From: Sutterella sp. AM11-39
GTDB lineage: Bacteria; Pseudomonadota; Gammaproteobacteria; Burkholderiales; Burkholderiaceae_F
Reading direction: 5' to 3'
Length of the DNA stretch: 64,000 bases
NCBI RefSeq assembly: GCF_003472385.1
Contig: NZ_QRLV01000004.1
Coordinates: 62,001-126,000, forward strand
Shown one piece after another: positions 3,768-29,312 of this stretch. Position numbers and translations under genes: made by a program. How positions within the stretch are numbered: the stretch's first letter is position 1; each line of letters begins with the position of its first letter. Below the pieces are notes generated by a model. The model was not told where the DNA came from. It did not search any database and saw nothing but the letters and a program-made list of their open reading frames with translations.

Positions 3768-5324
3768 TCACCTCGGTGATTTTAGTGGAGAAGACGCTCG
3801 AGCAAGGAGCTTCAGCAGTCCCGGGTGGGAAACACCTCCACGGACGTGGAGAAGACCCCAGAGAACCATTCGGCGCGTCGGAAGACCTTGGAAACACCTC
3901 CACGGACGTGGAGAAGACTTCAACGAGGACGACATTTCCGTTACGCGTGCGGAAACACCTCCACGGACGTGGAGAAGACACAGTTGACATCAGTGTCTCG
4001 AGCTACGACGGAGAAACACCTCCACGGACGTGGAGAAGACGTGAATGGTATCCGACTACGCACGTGCAGTTGAGAAACACCTCCACGGACGTGGAGAAGA
4101 CCCGAACGCTCTACTGCTCATTCCGTGCATCAAGGAAACACCCGGCGATACGTCTCAGGTTTCCCGCGGTGTGAGGCTCATTCCGTGCATCAAGGAAACA
4201 CCTCCACGGACGTGGAGAAGACGACATCATTCTGTTTTCCCTTGATCTGCGGGAGGAAACACCTCCACGGACGTGGAGAAGACGACATCATTCTGTTTTC
4301 CCTTGATCTGCGGGAGGAAACACCTCCACGGACGTGGAGAAGACGACATCATTCTGTTTTCCCTTGATCTGCGGGAGGAAACACCTCCACGGACGTGGAG
4401 AAGACTACTGTGCGCCATTGCCGTTATATCCTGCGAGAGAAACACCTCCACGGACGTGGAGAAGACGATACTCGAGCGAGGAAGCCTCAGGATGCTTTAC
4501 GAAACACCTCCACGGACGTGGAGAAGACCACGTGTTGGTTGTGGCATCCAGCAGTTGGCTGGAAACACCTCCACGGACGTGGAGAAAACTCAAAGCCGTC
4601 CCCTTTTTTATTGGTGCATCCTGAGAAACACCTCCACGGACGTGGAGAAGACGGCAGTTTCTTGATGTCTGAAGCTCGGAGTTTGGAAACACCTCCACGG
4701 ACGTGGAGAAGACTTATCGCAAGCGACTGTCCGCAGCCAGTGCAAGGAAACACCTCCACGGACGTGGAGAAGACCCCAAAATGAAGTAGTTGAAGCCGTA
4801 TGCCGAGGAAACACCTCCACGGACGTGGAGAAGACTACAAACGCAGTTTTGATGGTTCACAGCTTTGGAGAAACACCTCCACGGACGTGGAGAAGACACG
4901 ATGGTCATTTGCATGTACGGCCTGGGGGAAGAAACACCTCCACGGACGTGGAGAAGACGGCGGCACCACACGGAGCCACATCTTGTCCAAGGAAACACCT
5001 CCACGGACGTGGAGAAGACCATCCTTGCGGCCGTTCAGATTCATGGTGTCTAGAAACACCTCCACGGACGTGGAGAAGACTTCGTGATGATCTGGCCCTT
5101 GTCCGTGTCACCGGAAACACCTCCACGGACGTGGAGAAGACTAGACAAAAACGGCGCTCAAGTAACGCTGGAGAGAAACACCTCCACGGACGTGGAGAAG
5201 ACGTGCGCAAGCTTTCGGGTGCTGAATCCAAGTTGGAAACACCTCCACGGACGTGGAGAAGACTTAGTGAGTGTAATGCAGCCCGAGACCTTGTCAGAAA
5301 CACCTCCACGGACGTGGAGAAGAC
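3768..5324 (-). CRISPR. Type I-E CRISPR array, about 25 repeats
   Basis: 28-bp repeats start on the plus strand at 3829, 3891, 3952, 4013, 4074, 4195, 4256, 4317, 4378, 4439, 4501, 4562, 4625, 4686, 4747, 4808, 4870, 4931, 4992, 5053, 5114, 5175, 5236 and 5297 (24 good copies). A degenerate copy lies at 4135 and a decayed terminal copy at 3768-3795. Each repeat begins GAAACACC and contains the palindrome CTCCACGGACGTGGAG. Spacers are 32-35 nt. Read on the minus strand the repeat starts GTCTTCTCCACG and ends GGTGTTTC, matching the I-E pattern and cas gene orientation. The copy at 4562 has one change (GAAAAC). Three consecutive spacers are identical (4223, 4284, 4345). No AT-rich leader exists, because cas1 abuts the array directly. 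Confidence 0.98.
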
Positions 5325-5995
5325 CCGGAATGAATGAAGCCGATGTACGGTGAAAAACCGGCAGAATGAACGATTGAATTTAAGATTCCGTACAATGCAG
5401 CGTTGCATGCCGTCAAAATTCTATTGACAGTATCACTCGCTGAAAATTGTCCGGGAATGAACCGTCTTCCTTTCCAGCGCAGGCCATATTGTTCAGCCTT
5501 TTGCCTGTACAAGTTTCTTACTCTCACTCCCTCCATGCCCATCATTTCCGGCAGCGTTCTCGCTCGGAGATCCACACCAGGAAACCGACGAGCAAACATC
5601 CGTCGGGCAACGTCGAGAGACAACACCGGATCGGCTGCCGCTTTAATCTGCCTGAGCATATTGCGGGTATCAGCCGTCGGCGTAATGCCGTTTGCGTAGT
5701 AAAGCAGACTGTCTTCACCCACCCACATTACGGCACATTTCGCCGCGGCCAATACTTTGACAGCCTCATGCGTAACGGATGTTCCCGGCCCAAGCAACAA
5801 GCACTGAAGCAAAGCTGCGGGGATCCTGACAACACCACCCTGAGCATCAATCCACTTGATGCTGCTGTCATCAACTTCAAGTCGACCGTGCTCAAGGTAG
5901 ATATAGGGATAGCGATCCTTAATTTGAGGAAGGTTATCCCTCGTAACTTTGATGAACAGCCGAGGTGAAGACCTACGAAGAGTCGTTTCAGGCAT
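5294..5995 (-). pseudogene. cas1: cas1 (type I-E), 3'-truncated by the CRISPR array
   Basis: Cas1e integrase subunit needed for spacer acquisition. About 224 residues match Cas1e, ending in PYIGFIHSG, and the next codons are the CRISPR repeat itself (SSPRPWRCF, then stop at 5294). Family Cas1e proteins are about 300 residues, so roughly 90-95 C-terminal residues are missing. The catalytic Glu (MEGVRVR) and His (GFIHSG) are present, but the metal-binding aspartates that follow in E. coli Cas1 (FVYDIAD region) are lost. The start at 5995 overlaps the cas5e end by 8 bp; in-frame ATGs at 6022 and a start at 6040 are alternatives. No cas2 follows. Likely inactive. Confidence 0.9.
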
Positions 5996-6698
5996 CGATG
6001 ATTGTGATTTGTCTGTCGGCATATTTCTTGAACGTTCCAAACTGCACCGGCACGTCCGACAGCGTCATAACCTCGCCCCTTTCCGGATGCTGTCCCTCGA
6101 GCACCGTAAAACGGCACTCAAGAGCCTTGCCATCGGCAATGTTCAAAGCCTCCCGCCTGGCCTCCTCTTCCGAAAAGAAGCATCCTCGATATACCAGATC
6201 CGTCGGCACACAGCACTTGCGCCCCAAATACAGGTCCCAATGAGGATTTTGCAGCGCAGACTCAATCGTTTTCCGCAATTCCTCCGGTACGCAGACAATG
6301 ACGGCAAATTTTGCATCCTGCAGGTAGTAGCGATACGTCAGTTTCGTACCGCTATTTTTAGGTTTGGTTCCGTCAATTTTCTTGGGAATTAGGAGTTTTT
6401 GCCATGGATCGGAATCGTCATACGCGCTTCCAACCATCTGGAAATCCACTAATTGCAGATTTTCACGAAACTTCCGAGAAGGCCCTTTCTTACCAAAGGC
6501 CAACACGGTTTGTCCATACCGCGACATCTTTTCCAGCCATTCCGACTGGGGGCCTCCTGCCCCCATTGCACAAAGAATCAGTCCCAGTACGCCGGATCTC
6601 GTCGGAAAGCCGAGCGTTTCTCTTCTGTTGAATCGCGACTCATAGCCCCATGACTGGAGAGGCGCCTCCAACCACAACAGCACATATGAATCAGCCAT
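5988..6698 (-). CDS. cas5e: Cas5e, Cascade 5'-handle subunit
   Basis: 236-residue Cas5/CasD-family RAMP protein that caps the 5' end of the crRNA in the type I-E Cascade complex. The N-terminal LLWLEAPLQSWGYESRF block and GFPTRSGVLGLI are characteristic (family pattern L.gplqsWG...r.T...Psksgv.Gll). The start overlaps the cas7e stop by 8 bp, implying translational coupling. A GCFFSEEEARREAL stretch lies in the middle. It appears intact. Confidence 0.93.
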   Translation of the reverse strand: MADSYVLLWLEAPLQSWGYESRFNRRETLGFPTRSGVLGLILCAMGAGGPQSEWLEKMSRYGQTVLAFGKKGPSRKFRENLQLVDFQMVGSAYDDSDPWQKLLIPKKIDGTKPKNSGTKLTYRYYLQDAKFAVIVCVPEELRKTIESALQNPHWDLYLGRKCCVPTDLVYRGCFFSEEEARREALNIADGKALECRFTVLEGQHPERGEVMTLSDVPVQFGTFKKYADRQITIIDA

Positions 6699-7739: not shown

Positions 7740-8351
7740 TCAATTGCCGGAAACTTGAATGGGAACAATCTGAAGCAGGCCGCAACCGAAAGCTTTGCCT
7801 CGTCCGATACCTGTTTCGAAACTTTTGATGAAAAGATCTCTTTGCGTGACCTTCATCACGCCCTTGAGCACCGCCTGCTCAAGCGTCACACGATGCTCTC
7901 CCTTGCGAAATTGTTGAACATTGACTTCTAAGACCTCGGTCTGAAGACACCTGAAACCCCACGATGCCGTGCGTGATTCAAACCACGTCCGTATGTCTTC
8001 CCTTTGCTTGATAGGAACAAGGTTGCCGTTTACCGACCTCCTGGTGGGGTTGACGACGACCTCAAACGCGTATGCATCGTGCTGCAAGAATTTGTCCGGA
8101 ATGCACCGAGTGCGCACTGTGCCGTATGCCGGCTCCAATGGTTCCCTGTTTGAGAGAAACAAAATGCGCCTGGAGACTTTGTCGCCCCCTTTGTCCGCAT
8201 AGAGAAAACCAGCCGGCTGATGCGCATTCTTTTGCTCCGGCGTGCGCTCATCGGGAAACAGGCTGTAGATCACTCGATGCACGGAATACGGATCCGTAAC
8301 CCGGAGCTCTCTAATGTCTCTCCAACTTAGTTCCAATACTCCGGCAATCAT
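7740..8351 (-). CDS. cas6e: Cas6e, crRNA-processing endoribonuclease
   Basis: 203-residue Cse3/CasE-family RNase that cuts pre-crRNA at the repeat hairpin and stays on the 3' handle. A candidate catalytic His lies in YSVHRVIYSLFP, and the C-terminal Gly-rich loop GIGRGKAFGCGLL is the family signature. The ATG at 8351 overlaps the cse2 stop (ATGA-type coupling) and has GAGAGGAGCAGTC upstream. Its place between cse2 and cas7e differs from the E. coli order, where cas6e follows cas5e. Confidence 0.93.
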   Translation of the reverse strand: MIAGVLELSWRDIRELRVTDPYSVHRVIYSLFPDERTPEQKNAHQPAGFLYADKGGDKVSRRILFLSNREPLEPAYGTVRTRCIPDKFLQHDAYAFEVVVNPTRRSVNGNLVPIKQREDIRTWFESRTASWGFRCLQTEVLEVNVQQFRKGEHRVTLEQAVLKGVMKVTQRDLFIKSFETGIGRGKAFGCGLLQIVPIQVSGN

Positions 8352-13303: not shown

Positions 13304-14566
13304 ATGGCCATTATTGTTCACAAGTACGGCGGCACCTCAATGGGTAGCGTCGAGCGCATCAAGAATGTCGCAAGGCGTGTTGCCAAGTGGCACCGCGCCG
13401 GCTATCAGATGGTGGTGGTGGTTTCTGCGATGAGCGGAGAAACCAATCGCCTCATCGCGCTTGCCAAAGAAATCATGCCCAATCCCGATCCCAGGGAGCT
13501 CGACGTCATTGCAAGTACCGGCGAACAGGTCTCCATCGGCCTGCTCGCGATGGCTCTCAAGAGCATCGGCGTCGACGCAGTGAGCTTCAACGGCTCCCAG
13601 GTTGCCGTACACACAGACAGCGCCTTTACCAAGGCCCGTATCGAGTCCATTGACAGCGAACCGGTCAAGCGTGAACTTGACGCCGGCAAAGTTGTCATCG
13701 TCGCCGGCTTTCAGGGACGAGACAGCGCAGGCAACGTCACCACCCTCGGCCGCGGCGGCTCGGACACTTCGGGCGTGGCACTTGCCGTGGCTCTTCAGGC
13801 TCAGGAATGCCTCATTTTTACCGACGTTGACGGTGTTTACACCACCGACCCGCGCATCGAACCCAAAGCCCGCAAACTTGACGTCATCAGCTTTGAAGAA
13901 ATGCTCGAGCTCGCGAGCCTCGGCTCCAAGGTGCTGCAGATCCGCAGCGTGGAGTTCGCCGGCAAATACCACGTTCCCGTGCGTGTTCTCTCGAGCCTTA
14001 CTGACCCCAATATTCCCGTTGACGTCGAAGCGTCCAGCGGTACCCTGATTTCTTTTGAGGATGATCCGAAGATGGAGAAAGCCCTTGTTTCCGGCATCGC
14101 CTGCACCCGCGATGAAGCCAAAATCACGCTCTCGCGCGTTCCCGACACCCCGGGCGTGGCCTATAAGATTCTCGGCCCCGTAGCCCAGCACAACATTGAC
14201 GTCGACATGATCGTGCAAAACGACGGTCTCGACGGCACGACCGACTTCTCCTTTACCGTTCCGCGCGGCGACGTTGACAAATGCCTGAAGGTCCTCAATG
14301 AAGAAGTCGTTCCGGTCTGCCATCCCGAAGGCATTCACACGAACGCCGACATTGCCAAAGTGAGTGTTGTGGGCATCGGCATGCGCACCCACGCAGGCGT
14401 AGCCTGCCGCATGTTCGAGTCGCTTGCTGCCGAAGGCATCAATATCGAGATGATCAGCACTTCTGAAATCAAGGTGAGCCTCGTGATTCAGGACAAGTAC
14501 ATGGAACTTGCCGTACGCGCTCTGCACAAGGCCTTCAACCTCGAAGAAGACAAAGTCAAACGCTGA
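13304..14566 (+). CDS. lysC: Aspartate kinase
   Basis: 420-residue monofunctional aspartokinase that phosphorylates aspartate, the first step to lysine, threonine, methionine and diaminopimelate. The N-terminal motif [16 protein letters not shown] and the internal [16 protein letters not shown] (ATP/aspartate site) are diagnostic. Two ACT domains follow (about 265-345 and 345-420), with [14 protein letters not shown] in the first, implying allosteric control by end products. The ATG at 13304 gives the canonical Lys-Tyr-Gly-Gly N-terminus; an upstream in-frame ATG at 13235 has no homology. A strong terminator follows at 14595. Confidence 0.96.
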
Positions 14567-14594
14567 TCAACCGGGCTGATTTGCCATGACTCAC

Positions 14595-14628
14595 AAGTCC
14601 TGCCGGCTCTCGCCGACGGGACTTTTTT
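14595..14628 (+). terminator. Rho-independent terminator after lysC
   Basis: A 13-bp stem with two mismatched or wobble positions, AAGTCCTGCCGGC against GCCGACGGGACTT, with a TCTC loop, ending in six T. It sits 29 bp past the lysC stop. Confidence 0.85.
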
Positions 14629-14684
14629 CGTTATCATTCGCGCAACCGTTCCTGCCTGTTACCTACCATTAAAAAGGTTCGCTC

Positions 14685-21167: not shown

Positions 21168-21272
21168 CGCAAAATCTATGGCTTCGGTTCGGGACAAAGC
21201 GCATTGCGCGCCTTAAAATCCAAGCGCGTGAGTAAACCCGCACTTTTTGAGTCAAACCTTGTTCGAAAATCA

Positions 21273-24200
21273 ATGAGTAACCTACCCACTTTGGCCGCAG
21301 GTCCCGTGCAGCTGCCGGGCACCATCAATCGGGACACGATTGTCTTTATTGATGCCGAAGTGTCTCCCGAAACCGGGAAAATCGTTGATTTGGGAGCCTG
21401 CCGCCCCGACGGTCGCTTTTTTCACTCCAGCAACGTCGCGGCCTTCAAAGAATTCTGCAAGGGTGCCGAATATGTGTGCGGCCACAACATCGTGGCCTTC
21501 GACATGCAGTATCTGCGCCCCGTTTTGGGCGACGGACCGCAGCCTGTCGATACCCTGCCGCTTTCGGCGCTTCTTTTTCCGCGCAAGCGCTTTCACAAGC
21601 TTCTCAAGGACGAAAAGCTGCTCACCGACGAACTCAACAATCCCCTGTCGGACGCCCGCAAAGCGATGTCTCTTTTCGAAGAGGAAGTGGCGGCCTTCAA
21701 TGAGTTGCCCGGCGTACTGCAGCGACTTTTCTGCGCGATGCTCAAAAACCGACCGGAGTTTGCGGGCTTTTTCCGATGCCTTAACGTTCAGACGCCAACC
21801 TTTGCCGATCCTGCGGGCGTGATCAAGCGCCTGATGGCCGACAGGTTGTGCATTCACGCCGATCTCGACGGTCTGGCCAAGCGCCGACCGGCTGAACTTG
21901 CCTACGCGCTTGCATTCATTCGCGCGGCAGAACCCGCCGATGTCATTCCGCCCTGGGTCAACACCAATTACCCGGCCACGCAGGCGGTGCTCGAGGCGCT
22001 GCGATTTACGCCCTGCAGCAAGGGCTGTCCGTATTGCAAGGAAAGGCTCGACGTCAAGACGGGGCTTTCTCGCTTTTTCGGCTTTGATTCATTCAGAACC
22101 TACAACGACGAACCCCTGCAGGAAATGGCCGCGCGTGCTGCGGTGGGCGGCGAGTCGTTGCTTGCGGTCTTTCCCACGGGCGGCGGCAAATCCATCACTT
22201 TTCAACTGCCCGCTTTGATGCAGGGCGAGCTCACCCGTGCGCTTACGGTTGTCATTTCGCCTCTGCAGTCTCTGATGAAGGATCAGGTAGAAAACCTCGT
22301 CTCCAAGGGTATCAGCCGCGCGGTCACGATTAACGGACTTTTGAGCCCGATCGAGCGCTCGCGCGCTCTTGAAGCCGTCATCAGCGGCGAAGCAACGCTT
22401 TTGTACATCGCCCCTGAGTCACTGCGTTCCCGCTCCATTCTTGCCGCACTGCAGCAACGCCGCGTGACACGCTTTGTAATCGATGAAGCGCACTGCTTCT
22501 CGGTCTGGGGGCACGATTTCCGCGTCGACTATCTTTTCATCGCGGACTTCATCAAAAAGCTGGAAGATTTTTACGGTGCAAACAGCAAAATTGCCGTTTC
22601 CTGCTTTACCGCCACGGCCAAACAGAAAGTTATTCAGGACATCTGCGACTACTTCAAGCAAAGACTCGGACTGGAATTGCGCATCCTTGCGACGTCTGCC
22701 GAACGCAAGAACTTGAGCTACCGCGTCATTCACGTTGAAAACGACGCGGATCGCTACGCGCGTCTGCGAGAACTCCTCGAGGCCGCCGAGGGTCCGGCTA
22801 TTGTCTACGTTGCCACCGTGCGGGAAACCAAGGAACTTGCCGCGGCTCTCACCGCCGACGGTCTGGAAGCCGTCGCGTTTGCCGGACGCATGGATGCTGC
22901 CGAAAAAAGCGCCAATCAGGATGCGTTCATCGCGGGCCAGGTCAAGACGATCGTCGCCACTAACGCCTTCGGCATGGGCGTCGACAAAAAGGACGTGCGC
23001 CTGGTGGTGCACTACAACATATCCTCATCGCTTGAAAACTACGTTCAGGAATCGGGCCGCGCAGGTCGGGACGAGTCGCTGCAGGCTCAGTGCTGCATTC
23101 TCTTTAACGAGGAAGACCTCAACACGCACTTTGCGCTGCTGCGGCAGTCCAAGCTGACGCTTGCCGACATTCAGCTCATTTGGAACGCCATAAAGTCGGT
23201 AAAAAGCAGGCGCTTCTCGATTTCGCCGCTCGAACTCGCGCGTAAAGCCGGCCTCGAGTACGACGAACTGCAGCTTGACACCAAAGTTAAGAACGCGATC
23301 GCCGCCTTGGAAATCGCCGGTTACGTGCGCCGCTCCATGAACGCGCCGCGCGTCTACGCCACAAGCGTTGCCGTTAAAAGCACGATCGAGGCCCGAGAAC
23401 GCATCGAGGCAAGTCCTCTCTTTGCAACCGAAGCCGAACGCAACGAAGCCGTGCGCATCGTCGCTTCGCTCATTTCTGCGCGCAGCGGCTATAAAACCAA
23501 GGGCGAACCGGCCGAGACACGCACCGATTGGCTGGCCGACCGTCTGGGCATCGCCCTGCCTCAAGTCGTCGCCGTCATCGGGAAACTGCGGCAAGCGGGC
23601 GTTCTGCACGACGACAACGATATGTCGGCCACGGTGAGCCGACGCCAGCTCAAATCGGCCTCCGCTGTCTTAGGAACCTATCAGAATCTCGAATCGCTGC
23701 TCATCCGGCGGCTCTCCGACGGCGGCCGCGCCGACTTCAATCTCAAGGAACTCAATAACGAAGCCTTGGCAGGCGGCTCGGCAAGCGATGTCAAGAAGAT
23801 CACGACCCTTTTGATGTACCTGAAAGCGGCTGGGTTGCTTGATGAAATGCGCCGCACGCGAGGCTCTCAGAATGTATCGCTCGTGACCAAACGTTCGACG
23901 CAGGAACTTGAAGCCGCCGCGCAGATGCGGGCCGACTTGTGCGCCTTTATCGTGGAGTCGCTCAAAGCGATGGCCCAAAACGGCGCACGTGCCGGGTCTT
24001 CCGACTACGTTGCGCTCTCCTTTTCGGCCGTGCAACTGCTGCGAGACTACCGACAGCAGAGCTGGCTCACCGAGACGCCTGTCACGCTGCGCGACGTCGA
24101 AAACGCGCTTTTGTTCCTGCACCGCACCGGTGTCCTCTCGCTTGAAGGCGGCTTCATGGTTTCGTATCAGGGCATGACGCTTGAACGCGTCGAGCTCGAC

Positions 24201-26165
24201 AACAAGCGCCGCTACCGAAAGCAGGACTACGCGCAGTTTTCGGAACACTACCGCCAGAAAGTTCAGCAGGTACACATCGTCGGTCGCTACGCCAACCTGA
24301 TGCTTGCCGACTACGAAGCGGCTCTGCAATACGTGCGCGACTACTTCGAACTCGACTATCAGGAATTCCTGAGCAAGTATTTTGCAGGAACCGCCGCCGA
24401 TGAACTCAATTTGGGCCTGACTCCGGCTCTGCGCAACCGCATCTTCGGCCAGCTCTCCGAAAAGCAGCGCGCGATCATCGATGAGCAAGCTCAGTTCGTG
24501 GTGGTGGCCGCAGGTCCCGGCAGCGGTAAGACGCGCGTCCTCGTGCATAAGCTCGCGAGCCTTCTCGTGCGCGAAGACGTTCGCAGCGAACAGCTCCTGA
24601 TGCTCACCTTCTCGCGGGCGGCCGCCACGGAATTTAAGCGCCGCCTGATTGAGCTCGTAGGCAAAGCGGCCTACTTCGTCGACATCAAGACCTTCCACTC
24701 CTATGCTTTTGACGTGCTCGGGCGTTACGGTTCGCTGCAGGAAGCCGACGGCATTGTCCGCAAAGCGGCCAAAGAGATCGCCTCGGGCAACGCCGAGCCC
24801 TCGCGCATTGGCAAGACGGTGCTTGTAATCGACGAAGCGCAGGATATGGACGCCTCCGAAGCCGAATTGGTCGAGGCGCTCATTGAACACAACGAAACCC
24901 TGCGCGTGATCGCCGTGGGCGACGACGACCAAAACATCTACGCCTTCCGCGGCGCCGACGGACGTTTTATGCAGGATCTGCTTGCCAAACGCGACGCCGT
25001 GCGCCACGAAATGACGGAAAACTACCGCAGCACGCCCGCTGTGGTCGACTTCAGCAACGCGTTCGTGAGCAAAATCAAGGCGCGTTTAAAGACACACGCT
25101 CTGACGGCGGTACGAAACGACACGGGATCGGTGCGTCTCGTGAGTCACACGTTCGAACACTTCGAAGAAGCACTCGTCAAGGGCATCATTGCGGATCTTT
25201 CCTGCGGCAAACTTTCGGGCAGCTGCGCGGTACTCACCAACACCAACGAAGAGGCCTTCACGCTGTGCGCCATGCTGAAGAAAACGGGAGTTGCCGTTTC
25301 GCTCATCCAGTCGCAAAAGAGCGTGAGCCTTGCCAATCTTGCCGAAGTGCGTGCGCTGCTCAAATACATGACGGCGCAGATGCACGGCCAAAAGCGCGCC
25401 TCCGTGCGTCTTTTTGCCGACGCCGCGCAGTGGCTCAGAGCCAATTACGGCGCAAGCATCTGGATCGACAACGTCCTGCGCCTCATCGAGTCCTTCACAG
25501 CCATCTTGCCCGCCGAAGGTTTTTTCTACCTTGCCGACTTTGAGGAATTCCTGCGCGAATCGGTACTTGAGGACACGTTCGAGCGCACGGCTTCGAGCAT
25601 CGTTGTTTCCACCATACACAAAGCCAAGGGGCGCGAGTTCGATCACGTCTACATTCTCTACGCTTCGCGCTCCTTTGAAGACGACGACGCCCGGCGCAAG
25701 CTCTATGTGGGCATGACCCGCGCGCGCTTTGACCTTACCATTCACTACCGCGGAGCGCTCCTCAATCAGACGCTTCCCGATGCCGTTCATCCGTCGATTG
25801 ACAAAACCGCATACAACGCGCCCGACGAACTCACGCTTACGCTTACTCACGAAGACGTGTGGCTCGACTACTTCGAAGACAAGAAGCGATTGATTCTGTC
25901 GATGCGCTCGGGTTTTCCTCTCACCCCCATCGAAGAGGGCCTCACGATCCGCACATCGACCGACGTCGTGCGCCTTGTCGTTTACTCCCGCGCTTTCCAA
26001 GCTCGCCTAGCGCAGCTCAAAAAGAGCGGCTTTACGGTGCAGTCCGCCGAAATCGGCTTTATCGTCGCCTGGCGCAAAACCCCGGAAGATCCGGAACTTG
26101 CCGTTGTCCTGCCGACCCTACACCTCAAACGCGGCAACAGTGCCCAATCTGAATTGATTTTTTGA
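21273..26165 (+). CDS. DnaQ-like exonuclease / RecQ helicase / UvrD-like helicase fusion
   Basis: A single 1630-residue frame with three parts. Residues about 20-135 are a DnaQ-like 3'-5' exonuclease fold (FIDAEV with D27 and E29, HNIVAFD with D77, SDAR with D127), but the usual His before the last Asp reads Asn. A Cys-rich CSKGCPYC stretch follows near 250. Residues about 280-650 are an SF2 RecQ core: Walker A PTGGGKS (K306), DEAH 404-407, QESGRAGRDE. A winged-helix and unknown linker follow. Residues about 1065-1510 are an SF1 UvrD/PcrA helicase: AGPGSGKTR (K1086), DEAQD (1187), GDDDQNIYAFRGAD, ENYRSTP, TIHKAKGREFDHV and YVGMTRAR. Probably DNA repair or recombination. The ATG at 21273 lacks a clear ribosome binding site; GTG 21228 and TTG 21204 are alternatives. 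Confidence 0.9.
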   Translation: MSNLPTLAAGPVQLPGTINRDTIVFIDAEVSPETGKIVDLGACRPDGRFFHSSNVAAFKEFCKGAEYVCGHNIVAFDMQYLRPVLGDGPQPVDTLPLSALLFPRKRFHKLLKDEKLLTDELNNPLSDARKAMSLFEEEVAAFNELPGVLQRLFCAMLKNRPEFAGFFRCLNVQTPTFADPAGVIKRLMADRLCIHADLDGLAKRRPAELAYALAFIRAAEPADVIPPWVNTNYPATQAVLEALRFTPCSKGCPYCKERLDVKTGLSRFFGFDSFRTYNDEPLQEMAARAAVGGESLLAVFPTGGGKSITFQLPALMQGELTRALTVVISPLQSLMKDQVENLVSKGISRAVTINGLLSPIERSRALEAVISGEATLLYIAPESLRSRSILAALQQRRVTRFVIDEAHCFSVWGHDFRVDYLFIADFIKKLEDFYGANSKIAVSCFTATAKQKVIQDICDYFKQRLGLELRILATSAERKNLSYRVIHVENDADRYARLRELLEAAEGPAIVYVATVRETKELAAALTADGLEAVAFAGRMDAAEKSANQDAFIAGQVKTIVATNAFGMGVDKKDVRLVVHYNISSSLENYVQESGRAGRDESLQAQCCILFNEEDLNTHFALLRQSKLTLADIQLIWNAIKSVKSRRFSISPLELARKAGLEYDELQLDTKVKNAIAALEIAGYVRRSMNAPRVYATSVAVKSTIEARERIEASPLFATEAERNEAVRIVASLISARSGYKTKGEPAETRTDWLADRLGIALPQVVAVIGKLRQAGVLHDDNDMSATVSRRQLKSASAVLGTYQNLESLLIRRLSDGGRADFNLKELNNEALAGGSASDVKKITTLLMYLKAAGLLDEMRRTRGSQNVSLVTKRSTQELEAAAQMRADLCAFIVESLKAMAQNGARAGSSDYVALSFSAVQLLRDYRQQSWLTETPVTLRDVENALLFLHRTGVLSLEGGFMVSYQGMTLERVELDNKRRYRKQDYAQFSEHYRQKVQQVHIVGRYANLMLADYEAALQYVRDYFELDYQEFLSKYFAGTAADELNLGLTPALRNRIFGQLSEKQRAIIDEQAQFVVVAAGPGSGKTRVLVHKLASLLVREDVRSEQLLMLTFSRAAATEFKRRLIELVGKAAYFVDIKTFHSYAFDVLGRYGSLQEADGIVRKAAKEIASGNAEPSRIGKTVLVIDEAQDMDASEAELVEALIEHNETLRVIAVGDDDQNIYAFRGADGRFMQDLLAKRDAVRHEMTENYRSTPAVVDFSNAFVSKIKARLKTHALTAVRNDTGSVRLVSHTFEHFEEALVKGIIADLSCGKLSGSCAVLTNTNEEAFTLCAMLKKTGVAVSLIQSQKSVSLANLAEVRALLKYMTAQMHGQKRASVRLFADAAQWLRANYGASIWIDNVLRLIESFTAILPAEGFFYLADFEEFLRESVLEDTFERTASSIVVSTIHKAKGREFDHVYILYASRSFEDDDARRKLYVGMTRARFDLTIHYRGALLNQTLPDAVHPSIDKTAYNAPDELTLTLTHEDVWLDYFEDKKRLILSMRSGFPLTPIEEGLTIRTSTDVVRLVVYSRAFQARLAQLKKSGFTVQSAEIGFIVAWRKTPEDPELAVVLPTLHLKRGNSAQSELIF

Positions 26166-27671: not shown

Positions 27672-29312
27672 TTACGCCGCTTTCTTGAGCCTCTTTTTGT
27701 TCGAGGCTTCCTTGATCGGCTCTTCCTGCCTTGATTTGCACCACGCTTCGTATCGGCCCCGTTCCAATTTCCTGACCGCTTCCTTACTCATGTAGCGCCT
27801 GTACTCCGGATCGTTGACCCTGAGAAGCAGATTCAGCGCTCCGTTTTGATCGGCCTGCGCCTTATGGCCGCAGTGCTTGCACTCAAACCGATCACCCTGT
27901 CGATTTTCTCCGGCTGTGTAGCCGCACTCCGGGCAATGCTGTGACGAATAGGCCGCCGGCACAAACACCACCTGTACGCCCGCCTTGGCCGACTTAAAGA
28001 GAAACCGATCTCTGATCGTGCCTCTGACCCATTTGCTCAACAGGTTGCGCACCTCTCGGCTGTATTTGCCCTCAAACGTAAAGCGATGCGACAGATCTTC
28101 CAAGGCATAGACCTGCGCCGGGCTTTGCCTGAGGATGTCGTTTAGCGCCTTGTTGACGGTGTTTTGGATTTCCGTACGGATGCGCTGCAATTCCTTTGTG
28201 AATTTCTTTGAACCCAAATTACAGCGCAGCATACGGCGTCGCTTGGCCTTACCCGTTTTCTGTGTCCGAGCCATAAGCTTATTTCTCTCCTTGAGCTTGG
28301 CATCGAGATATCGGGCATAGCCCGTGAGCTTTTCACCCAAACATGTACCGAAACGATTTCCCGCATCGTCCGTTGCCACTTCCGTAAAACCAAGATCAAG
28401 CGCACGGCAATAAAGCTTTCCACGGGAAGCTTTCGGTGAATCAATCGGACGGATATCCGATTTGCTCATGGATTTCTGAACGTGCAACGCCATGGTCCCG
28501 TCCGGGTGCTTGACGAGCTTGAGCGTGCTCGAGACCGGTATGCTTCCTTTGACGTAGAGCGTCAAGCGCACCCCGGGCGTAAGCGACATCAAATCCAGTC
28601 GTACCTGCTCTCCGACAACGACAGCTTTGTAGCACGAGCAGTCAAACCAAACGCTCGCGTCCCTGCCGTGTTTCGGTCTTTTGCCTTGCTCGTCGTGAAT
28701 CGTGCGCACCATCGCTTTGCACAATCCCTTGCGGCTGGCGACGGACTCCTTCTCAGTGTCCGTCACGACTGAGGGACATTTGCCGTCAAGCATTGTGAAG
28801 AAGTCTTCGGAAAGAGAGCCGAGAAGAAAATGCACGTAGCGCTGCTCGAGCTTATTGAGACGGGCAAACCAAGCCTTTCTCCGAATTCGGCTCAAAGCGT
28901 TGGCTTGCACAAGACGCCAGTAGTTGGAAACGGTGGCCGCTGCAGTTTGAAGCGCCATCTTCCAATGACGCGCTTGCAGACCGTAGGAAGAACGGTACTT
29001 CTCCATCACCAAGGCGTCTCTGAGCTTGCGCCAGCGGTTGCCGATGCAAAAGGCTCGGTGATCGCGTGTGAAAAGAAGATCAATGAAGTGCTGGCGTTCT
29101 TTGCCGAAGGCTCTCAGAAGCGCTTCGAGCTGCTCCCGGTTCTTTTCGACCGAGATTTCGTCCAAACAACGGACCATGGTGCGGTAAGCGGGAAGCTCGG
29201 CGGCGTTGCCAAGCTCCTTGATTCGCTTTGCGTCGACAAAATGTGGATCGGCCAGTTCGGTCTGCTGCATGGTCGGCTTCTTCCGGTACTGCTGAGAAGG
29301 AACGCCGATCAT
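27672..29312 (-). CDS. tnpB: TnpB, RNA-guided nuclease of IS607 element
   Basis: 546-residue TnpB of the IS607/IS1341 group, an RNA-guided DNA nuclease that helps the transposon persist after excision. The RuvC-type catalytic residues appear intact: D306 (ALDLGF), E405 (YALEDL), D488 (ADQNGALNLL). A zinc ribbon is at C460, C463, C478 and C481. Basic C-terminal end KKRLKKAA. The length exceeds the common 370-420 residues because of an extended N-terminal half (about 170 residues before the beta-domain), so a variant TnpB lineage is likely. Not broken. Confidence 0.9.
   Translation of the reverse strand: MIGVPSQQYRKKPTMQQTELADPHFVDAKRIKELGNAAELPAYRTMVRCLDEISVEKNREQLEALLRAFGKERQHFIDLLFTRDHRAFCIGNRWRKLRDALVMEKYRSSYGLQARHWKMALQTAAATVSNYWRLVQANALSRIRRKAWFARLNKLEQRYVHFLLGSLSEDFFTMLDGKCPSVVTDTEKESVASRKGLCKAMVRTIHDEQGKRPKHGRDASVWFDCSCYKAVVVGEQVRLDLMSLTPGVRLTLYVKGSIPVSSTLKLVKHPDGTMALHVQKSMSKSDIRPIDSPKASRGKLYCRALDLGFTEVATDDAGNRFGTCLGEKLTGYARYLDAKLKERNKLMARTQKTGKAKRRRMLRCNLGSKKFTKELQRIRTEIQNTVNKALNDILRQSPAQVYALEDLSHRFTFEGKYSREVRNLLSKWVRGTIRDRFLFKSAKAGVQVVFVPAAYSSQHCPECGYTAGENRQGDRFECKHCGHKAQADQNGALNLLLRVNDPEYRRYMSKEAVRKLERGRYEAWCKSRQEEPIKEASNKKRLKKAA

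Follow-up and report, generated by a model that had tools for sequence, protein, structure and literature searches.

A type I-E CRISPR-Cas locus in which cas1 runs into the first base of the array: possible self-deletion of adaptation modules in a Sutterellaceae clade

CRISPR-Cas loci devoid of adaptation genes are known and may borrow Cas1-Cas2 in trans (extract of PMC8092290). The loss of cas genes is also linked to autoimmunity. Indeed, self-targeting is toxic and is escaped via deletions of the target, of the array or of the cas genes (extracts of PMC3630108 and PMC6990116), and the targeting of the own cas genes followed by their deletion is discussed for type I-F systems, in E. coli and Salmonella (extract of PMC3630108). 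Concerning the acquisition of spacers, hotspots of self-protospacers lie upstream of the CRISPR-1 array of E. coli, and the non-PAM end of the incoming DNA joins the leader-repeat junction (extract of PMC10011333). A search of open-licence papers by title and start of abstract returned none about a cas1-array fusion.

The window (the whole stretch of DNA analysed, 64,000 nucleotides) carries on its minus strand a Duodenibacillus-like type I-E CRISPR-Cas locus (Sutterellaceae). The genes are ordered cas3, cse1, cse2, cas6e, cas7e, cas5e and cas1 stub, followed by the CRISPR array. The interference genes are:

5988..6698, minus strand: cas5e (casD), TIGR01868, 173.7 bits
6691..7785, minus strand: cas7e (casC), TIGR01869, 318.3 bits
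7740..8396, minus strand: cas6e (casE), true start probably internal, TIGR01907, 149.9 bits
8348..8872, minus strand: cse2 (casB), TIGR02548, 73.3 bits
8869..10362, minus strand: cse1/cas8e (casA), TIGR02547, 207 bits
10388..12973, minus strand: cas3, HD and helicase domains, TIGR01587, 200.3 bits, and Pfam Cas3_HD, 74.2 bits

Cas3 and every Cascade gene are full length and exceed the TIGR subunit cut-offs, in agreement with the original prediction, which regarded them as intact. Scores fall below the cut-off for the whole-protein model PRK09694 of Cas3 (332 of 569 bits), for PRK09693 of Cse1 (19 of 576 bits) and for the HD model TIGR01596 of Cas3 (41.5 of 43.45); Cas3 exceeds the cut-off of Pfam Cas3_HD (74 vs 23). 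The locus thus possesses cas3 together with cse1, cse2, cas7e, cas5e and cas6e, and the 28/29-nt hairpin repeats and ~32-nt spacers that are expected for type I-E. It lacks a complete cas1e and cas2e, no cas2 being found between cas1 and the array, as had been predicted, and it lacks a leader at the first repeat, which is adjoined by cas1 codons.

Elsewhere in the window, a 546-aa protein (27672-29312, minus strand), located ~15 kb from the CRISPR locus, carries a Cas12f1-like TNB domain (Pfam PF07282, TnpB-type). A 1653-aa ORF (21204-26165, plus strand) combines one half of DEAD/Helicase_C type with another of UvrD type and is a possible helicase fusion.

The boundary between cas1 and the array comprises the following features (P numbers designate protein clusters, P0001 being the closest intact Cas1):

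5325..5995, minus strand: cas1e stub, residues 1-224 (start as in P0001), ending after GFIHSG, TIGR03638
5324..5325, minus strand: joint between cas1 and repeat base 1, zero bases in between, read from the sequence
5297..5324, minus strand: first repeat GTCTTCTCCACGTCCGTGGAGGTGTTTC, 28 nt, hairpin of -9.6 kcal/mol, z -2.9
5294..6040, minus strand: fusion ORF, 248 aa, TTG start at 6040, C-terminal SSPRPWRCF from the first repeat

The Cas1e frame had been described as reading to GFIHSG and then continuing in frame into the first repeat (5324-5297), and ORF 6040-5294 reads so. The window cas1 ends at base 5325 and the first repeat begins at 5324; the SSPRPWRCF that follows GFIHSG is the translation of this repeat, and the fusion ORF stops nine residues past the joint. 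The stub is 97% identical to the intact P0001 (291 aa), and TIGR03638 covers it over profile positions 2-208 of 269 (258 bits; cut-off 215.6). Compared with P0001, 67 C-terminal residues are missing and not the ~90-95 initially proposed, a number that fits the 305-aa Cas1 of E. coli. According to a computed alignment, the counterparts of E. coli E141 and H208 are retained and those of D218 and D221 are lost, all of which we take to be catalytic residues of the E. coli Cas1. The leader-end motif ..TTGCT of most relatives is absent at the joint, and no insertion sequence is found there.

The deletion in the window locus is very probably real and heritable and, given this, the absence of adaptation in cis is nearly certain. 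A single deletion would have taken the last 67 cas1 codons, all of cas2 and the leader. Judging from the sequence, an interference-only locus is the favoured prediction, with Cas3, Cascade and the 24-repeat array remaining. The original prediction had seen in it a locus frozen for memory use: the loss of adaptation and the intact interference are supported, and the frozen memory itself is plausible because the D218/D221 counterparts, cas2 and the leader-end motif are gone. Promoter-like sites occur at chance level (6 found vs 5.4 expected); transcription of the array would depend on the cas operon upstream.

The comparison with relatives that had been proposed did reveal a full cas1-cas2-leader. 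In the closest relatives compared, the uncultured Duodenibacillus MAGs L001 and L002 (Cas1 identity of 74 and 72%, respectively), the place of the window's joint is occupied by the remainder of cas1, by cas2 and by a short leader, and the homologous base is separated from the first repeat by 535 nt (L001) and 539 nt (L002); the intact Cas1 with 97% identity is that of P0001. From the cas2 stop to the first repeat, L001 has only 31 nt and L002 39 nt. The leader, predicted to be AT-rich and missing, is indeed gone from the window, but these close relatives possess no long AT-rich leader. The cas1-cas2-short leader-array layout is also found in the family loci L046, L047 and L050. Among 11 family array starts, ..TTGCT directly precedes the repeat in seven (L001, L002, L047, L049, L051, L052 and L053); this leader end is lacking in three (L046, L050 and L061, an orphan array) and ambiguous in L045. 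In the window's clade, M(L/P)NLA followed by the repeat begins 8 of 117 listed array ORFs; such starts fit a TTGCT leader end, indicating that intact leaders exist in this clade.

A second locus order is found in the family, the array being located between cas5 and cas1 with the leader facing cas5 and the other end next to cas1 (L048 and L049, which are two contigs of the genome G055; L051 of G054, L052 of G060 and L053 of G061).

The array itself comprises:

3829..5324, minus strand: CRISPR array with 24 intact repeats, read from the sequence
4223..4405, minus strand: one repeat-spacer unit in three tandem copies (units 16-18)
4102..4194, minus strand: defective double unit (unit 19), two spacers with 18 nt in common and a mangled repeat between them
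3768..3795, minus strand: degenerate terminal repeat at the leader-distal end, read from the sequence

The 24 28-nt repeats are near-identical (23 exact, one with 1 mismatch), with C or T at the 29th position in 21 of the 22 window units counted. As the degenerate copy lies at the far end, the cas1 side is the leader side. Sequences from other strains (P0200, P0205 and P0228) carry subsets of window spacers 1-15 in a thinned order, with other spacers interposed; in P0200, the repeat of window spacer 1 is preceded by ..ATGTAYC (codon reading) and not by the leader-end motif. This sharing in thinned orders, the tandem copies and the mangled unit fit an array that changes by recombination only; internal spacer loss or duplication also happens in active arrays and is thus not specific to frozen ones.

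The main result here, unnoticed in the original prediction, is the pattern of joint positions. A protein database was searched with the fused ORF (best 120 of 3427 matches) and with the Cas1 N-terminus (best 120 of 1038). Among the matches listed, at least eight clusters show at least 94% identity in the Cas1 N-terminus. P0001 (310 members) is the intact Cas1. P0002, P0005 and P0238 (1, 3 and 4 members, respectively) are cas1 frames that continue into a repeat translation. P0003, P0004, P0012 and P0019 (29, 30, 1 and 11 members, respectively) are frameshifted or end early otherwise, some of these early ends perhaps resulting from sequencing errors or contig ends. With the joint marked by a slash, the fused proteins read ..GFIQ/SSPRPWRCF in P0002 (2 contigs, the longest of 119 kb), ..ALYG S/LLHVRGGVS in P0005 (1 contig of 37 kb) and ..TLPE/VFSTSVEVF in P0238 (its 4 members being found on 3 contigs).

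The joint is GG/GTCTTC in the window at the DNA level and, by codon reading, CA/GTCTTC in P0002, A/GTCTTC in P0005 and GAA/GTCTTC in P0238 (if Glu is encoded by GAA). The cas1 breakpoints correspond to window bases 5331 in P0002, 5386 in P0005 and 5546 in P0238, that of the window being 5325. Repeat base 1 is the joint in all four cases (at the DNA level in the window and via the codon reading of proteins in the three others). No microhomology is visible at the four joints; for P0002, P0005 and P0238, the reading without any shared base assumes a leader end in T and cas1 codons identical to those of the window. If ends were uniform in 61-nt units, the chance of three non-selected base-1 joints would be ~(1/61)^3 = 4e-6, a value based on a small number of protein-level joints. 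Base-1 joins recur in the clade, at four different cas1 breakpoints, which hints that the adaptation machinery causes its own deletion.

One further protein search (best 120 of 167 matches, mostly array ORFs) returned P0002 as its only fusion. The window's own protein, absent among the matches listed, may belong to the P0001 cluster, which may thus conceal further fusions. P0239 and P0251 were rejected as fusions, their tails not being repeat-like; the tail of P0253 presumably resembles adapter sequence.

In other genomes, Cas1e matches above the TIGR03638 cut-off are found in 34 of 399 genomes of Burkholderiales, 11 of 67 of the family and 30 of 369 of the class, these samples overlapping in part, and every one of these matches extends at least to profile position 266. 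With its 258 bits, the window stub would itself exceed this cut-off, unlike a stub such as that of P0238. Under this threshold, the match of G298 stops at profile position 262, two genomes (G512 and G263) carry a cut cas1e that is not joined to repeat-like sequence, and many other weak split Cas1 matches resemble other Cas1 subtypes. Neither cut gene was retained as a fusion: the cas1e of G512 is cut after WVGEDSL, 124 nt from the contig end, and enters a non-repeat sequence that we take to resemble a transposase; that of G263 encodes ~60 Cas1e residues, and no 16-mer occurs more than two times within the surrounding 4.5 kb. In E. coli, at least 80% of cas1-cas2-leader is conserved in 1207 of the 1215 genomes that have a K-12-like match; among the matches listed, H61, one of the other eight, retains 138 bases on the array side.

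Cas7e is found in 12 of 67 family genomes, among which G057 is devoid of any Cas1e match. Like the window, its locus (L045) has type I-E Cascade genes, no cas1-cas2 and a short array right after cas5. Unlike the window, it has 4 repeats with mutually similar spacers, TTGCT stands before the first copy, inside the end of cas5, and there is no base-1 fusion; as this first copy departs from the repeat at bases 1-3, L045 was rejected as a further base-1 case. From 14018 to ~14245, its 61-nt units (including the spacers) resemble one another at 77-82% and look like duplicated copies of one unit.

Isolated arrays and repeats were also observed. The genome G046, which has no Cas7e or Cas1e match, carries an orphan array (L061, 14740-16913) of 36 repeats (with up to 8 mismatches allowed) whose repeat is that of G045. 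This array is adjoined by an ORF (13407-14675) that presumably belongs to a transposase-like family. A lone repeat-like sequence lies in the same genome ~17 kb from the orphan array (L063, 8051-8085). Another, in a genome that also lacks a Cas7e match (L086 of G047:C12, ~101-130), differs from the repeat of G044 at 1 position out of 30; both could be solitary repeat units. In G512, a lone repeat-like hairpin between cas5 and the cut cas1 (L096, ~4828-4850) is perhaps what remains of an array once located there.

A broader reading, to which we give a probability of about 0.5, is that adaptation modules delete themselves, either via a spacer derived from their own cas1 or via a broken cas1 end joined to a repeat, and that this happened at least four times in the clade. 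The acquisition of a cas1-derived spacer followed by cas1/spacer recombination is the route that we tentatively put forward, with a likelihood a little short of even. Cas1-Cas2 would acquire a spacer from the nearby cas1 gene, and the 32-33-bp spacer copy and cas1 would then recombine as direct repeats. All that lies between the cas1 breakpoint and the end of the self-spacer would be deleted, leaving a cas1 that would run scarless into base 1 of the next repeat, which is the arrangement observed. The upstream repeat of the self-spacer would be removed too and autoimmunity would be cured; such a deletion would eliminate the self-targeting crRNA while sparing the remainder. A random deletion would not predict base-1 precision, and self-spacer recombination is favoured. 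The fact that the repeat at window spacer 1 does not follow a leader end in P0200 mildly favours recombination at a repeat that is not leader-proximal.

The PAM was derived by matching the spacers of family arrays to other family genomes, 12 target stretches being compared. It would be AAY, since AAT or AAC lies directly 5' of the protospacer in 6 of 6 matches with at most 5 mismatches; the match of window spacer 6 has 5 mismatches and an AAC PAM. Four weaker matches (6-8 mismatches) reading GAT, GAT, AAA and CAC were left out, and L086, L090, L091 and L094 contain no spacer match. A pyrimidine (C or T) occupies the 29th repeat position in 251 of 258 units, as expected if this base is PAM-derived, as in E. 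coli (extract of PMC10011333). A cas1-derived spacer predicts AAY 33-35 nt upstream of the joint or, for a flipped insertion, R/TT at the joint. In P0005, AAT is found at the predicted positions (-35..-33); if P0002 uses the codons of the window, it has A/TT, which fits a flipped insertion. The GGT of the window and the CTG of P0238 do not fit the PAM in direct orientation, the A/AT of P0238 does not fit the flipped PAM, and the flipped site of the window is deleted. The direct and flipped patterns occur at 3.4 and 3.8% of window cas1 positions, respectively; the chance of at least two fits out of four is ~3%, the flipped test having been added after data inspection. This mixed PAM evidence leans toward self-spacer recombination.

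No cas1-derived spacer was found among the 258 spacers of 11 arrays compared with the loci. The comparison of 1243 translated clade spacer segments with the window gave 80 six-residue matches, of which 3 lie in cas genes, as single six-residue matches, and none in cas1. The phages collection gave no match for the window array and one 24-nt match for L050; viral_contigs gave none for the repeat and none for 25-27-nt stretches of window spacers 1, 4 and 6.

A G045 spacer (L050) matches its own chromosome (L062, ~7992-8023) with 2 mismatches and an AAT PAM, and this is an apparent self-target. In L092 (G001:C41), window spacer 6 and an L053 spacer match opposite strands (101-132 and 155-186), both with an AAC PAM; this stretch is perhaps a shared phage gene.

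The other route included in the broader reading is a direct integrase event, in which Cas1-Cas2 would join a broken 3' end of cas1 to the leader-repeat junction (half-site integration), the product being resolved by replication or repair into a deletion of the intervening segment. Repeat base 1 is the site of the attack by the non-PAM end (extract of PMC10011333), and such an event explains the base-1 precision, the lack of microhomology and the variable cas1 ends without any PAM. However, it requires the loss of the intervening fragment and the resolution of a branched intermediate, and the other sequence that precedes the repeat of window spacer 1 in P0200 suggests that the window joint is possibly not at the leader-proximal repeat. 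We regard it as unlikely, although it is the strongest competitor of self-spacer recombination.

An assembly artefact appears somewhat less likely again. The original prediction had raised the possibility of an assembly or recombination product, and this doubt is weakened, not removed, by the three other base-1 joints at different cas1 positions: a random chimera is unlikely, as it would not give this pattern. A more specific artefact would arise if some cells carried a cas1-derived spacer and a short-k-mer assembly collapsed the 32-bp identity and jumped to the repeat. This predicts identical base-1 joints with variable breakpoints, and all the joints are known from assemblies, but it needs a k below ~32 at the end of the assembly as well as the dominance of self-spacer cells, and the fusions lie on separate contigs (2 for P0002, 1 for P0005 and 3 for P0238, the longest of 119 kb). 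Such a collapse would mimic the joint, yet a cas1-derived spacer would have to be present in the population here too.

The least probable of these explanations is that ordinary deletions arose by slippage, end joining or transposition and were favoured by selection owing to the cost of adaptation. The cas1 of the clade seems to be broken otherwise too (P0003, P0004, P0012 and P0019), cut cas1e genes of other kinds are found elsewhere (G512 and G263), and the GTCCTCT located in the cas1 of L001 and L002 by the window site resembles the start of the repeat. However, all four array-joined alleles fall on repeat base 1, no joint base is shared in P0002, P0005 and P0238, and the window joint is free of insertion sequences. 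Microhomology slip was rejected as the main route, since a slip on GTCCTCT would retain two further cas1 bases that are absent from the window. Loss mediated by an insertion sequence was rejected for want of such an element at the joint, the orphan array of G046 by its transposase-like ORF representing a different loss, and an RNA-mediated origin was dismissed because Cas6e cuts inside the repeat, so that base 1 would not be the terminus of a crRNA copy.

If true, the self-deletion of adaptation modules would amount to a built-in mechanism, linked to autoimmunity, that removes adaptation but spares interference, and adaptive loci would become fixed-memory loci in a gut clade. This bears on why and how so many CRISPR loci lose adaptation. 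Recurrent base-1 joints would be a readable scar of self-directed adaptation, countable in assemblies, and this scar would distinguish a loss due to neglect from one due to autoimmunity. The clade also offers a natural set of strains with and without adaptation that have spacers in common.

Compared with the canonical type I-E loci of Sutterellaceae (L001 and L002), the window has the same gene order (cas3-cse1-cse2-cas6e-cas7e-cas5e-cas1), repeat type and orientation, but these loci run on into a full cas1, cas2 and a leader of 31-39 nt that the window lacks. Like the loci that borrow Cas1-Cas2 in trans, it associates interference genes with an array without cas1-cas2; however, those loci, as described in the extract of PMC8092290, keep the array leader, whereas the window has lost the leader-end motif and retains a cas1 stub that points to a secondary loss. 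The type I-F case (extract of PMC3630108) resembles our reading of the window in that a spacer against the own cas genes would be the cause of cas loss. It differs in that the cas set is lost and the spacers stay, whereas in the window only the adaptation half has disappeared, with an exact joint.
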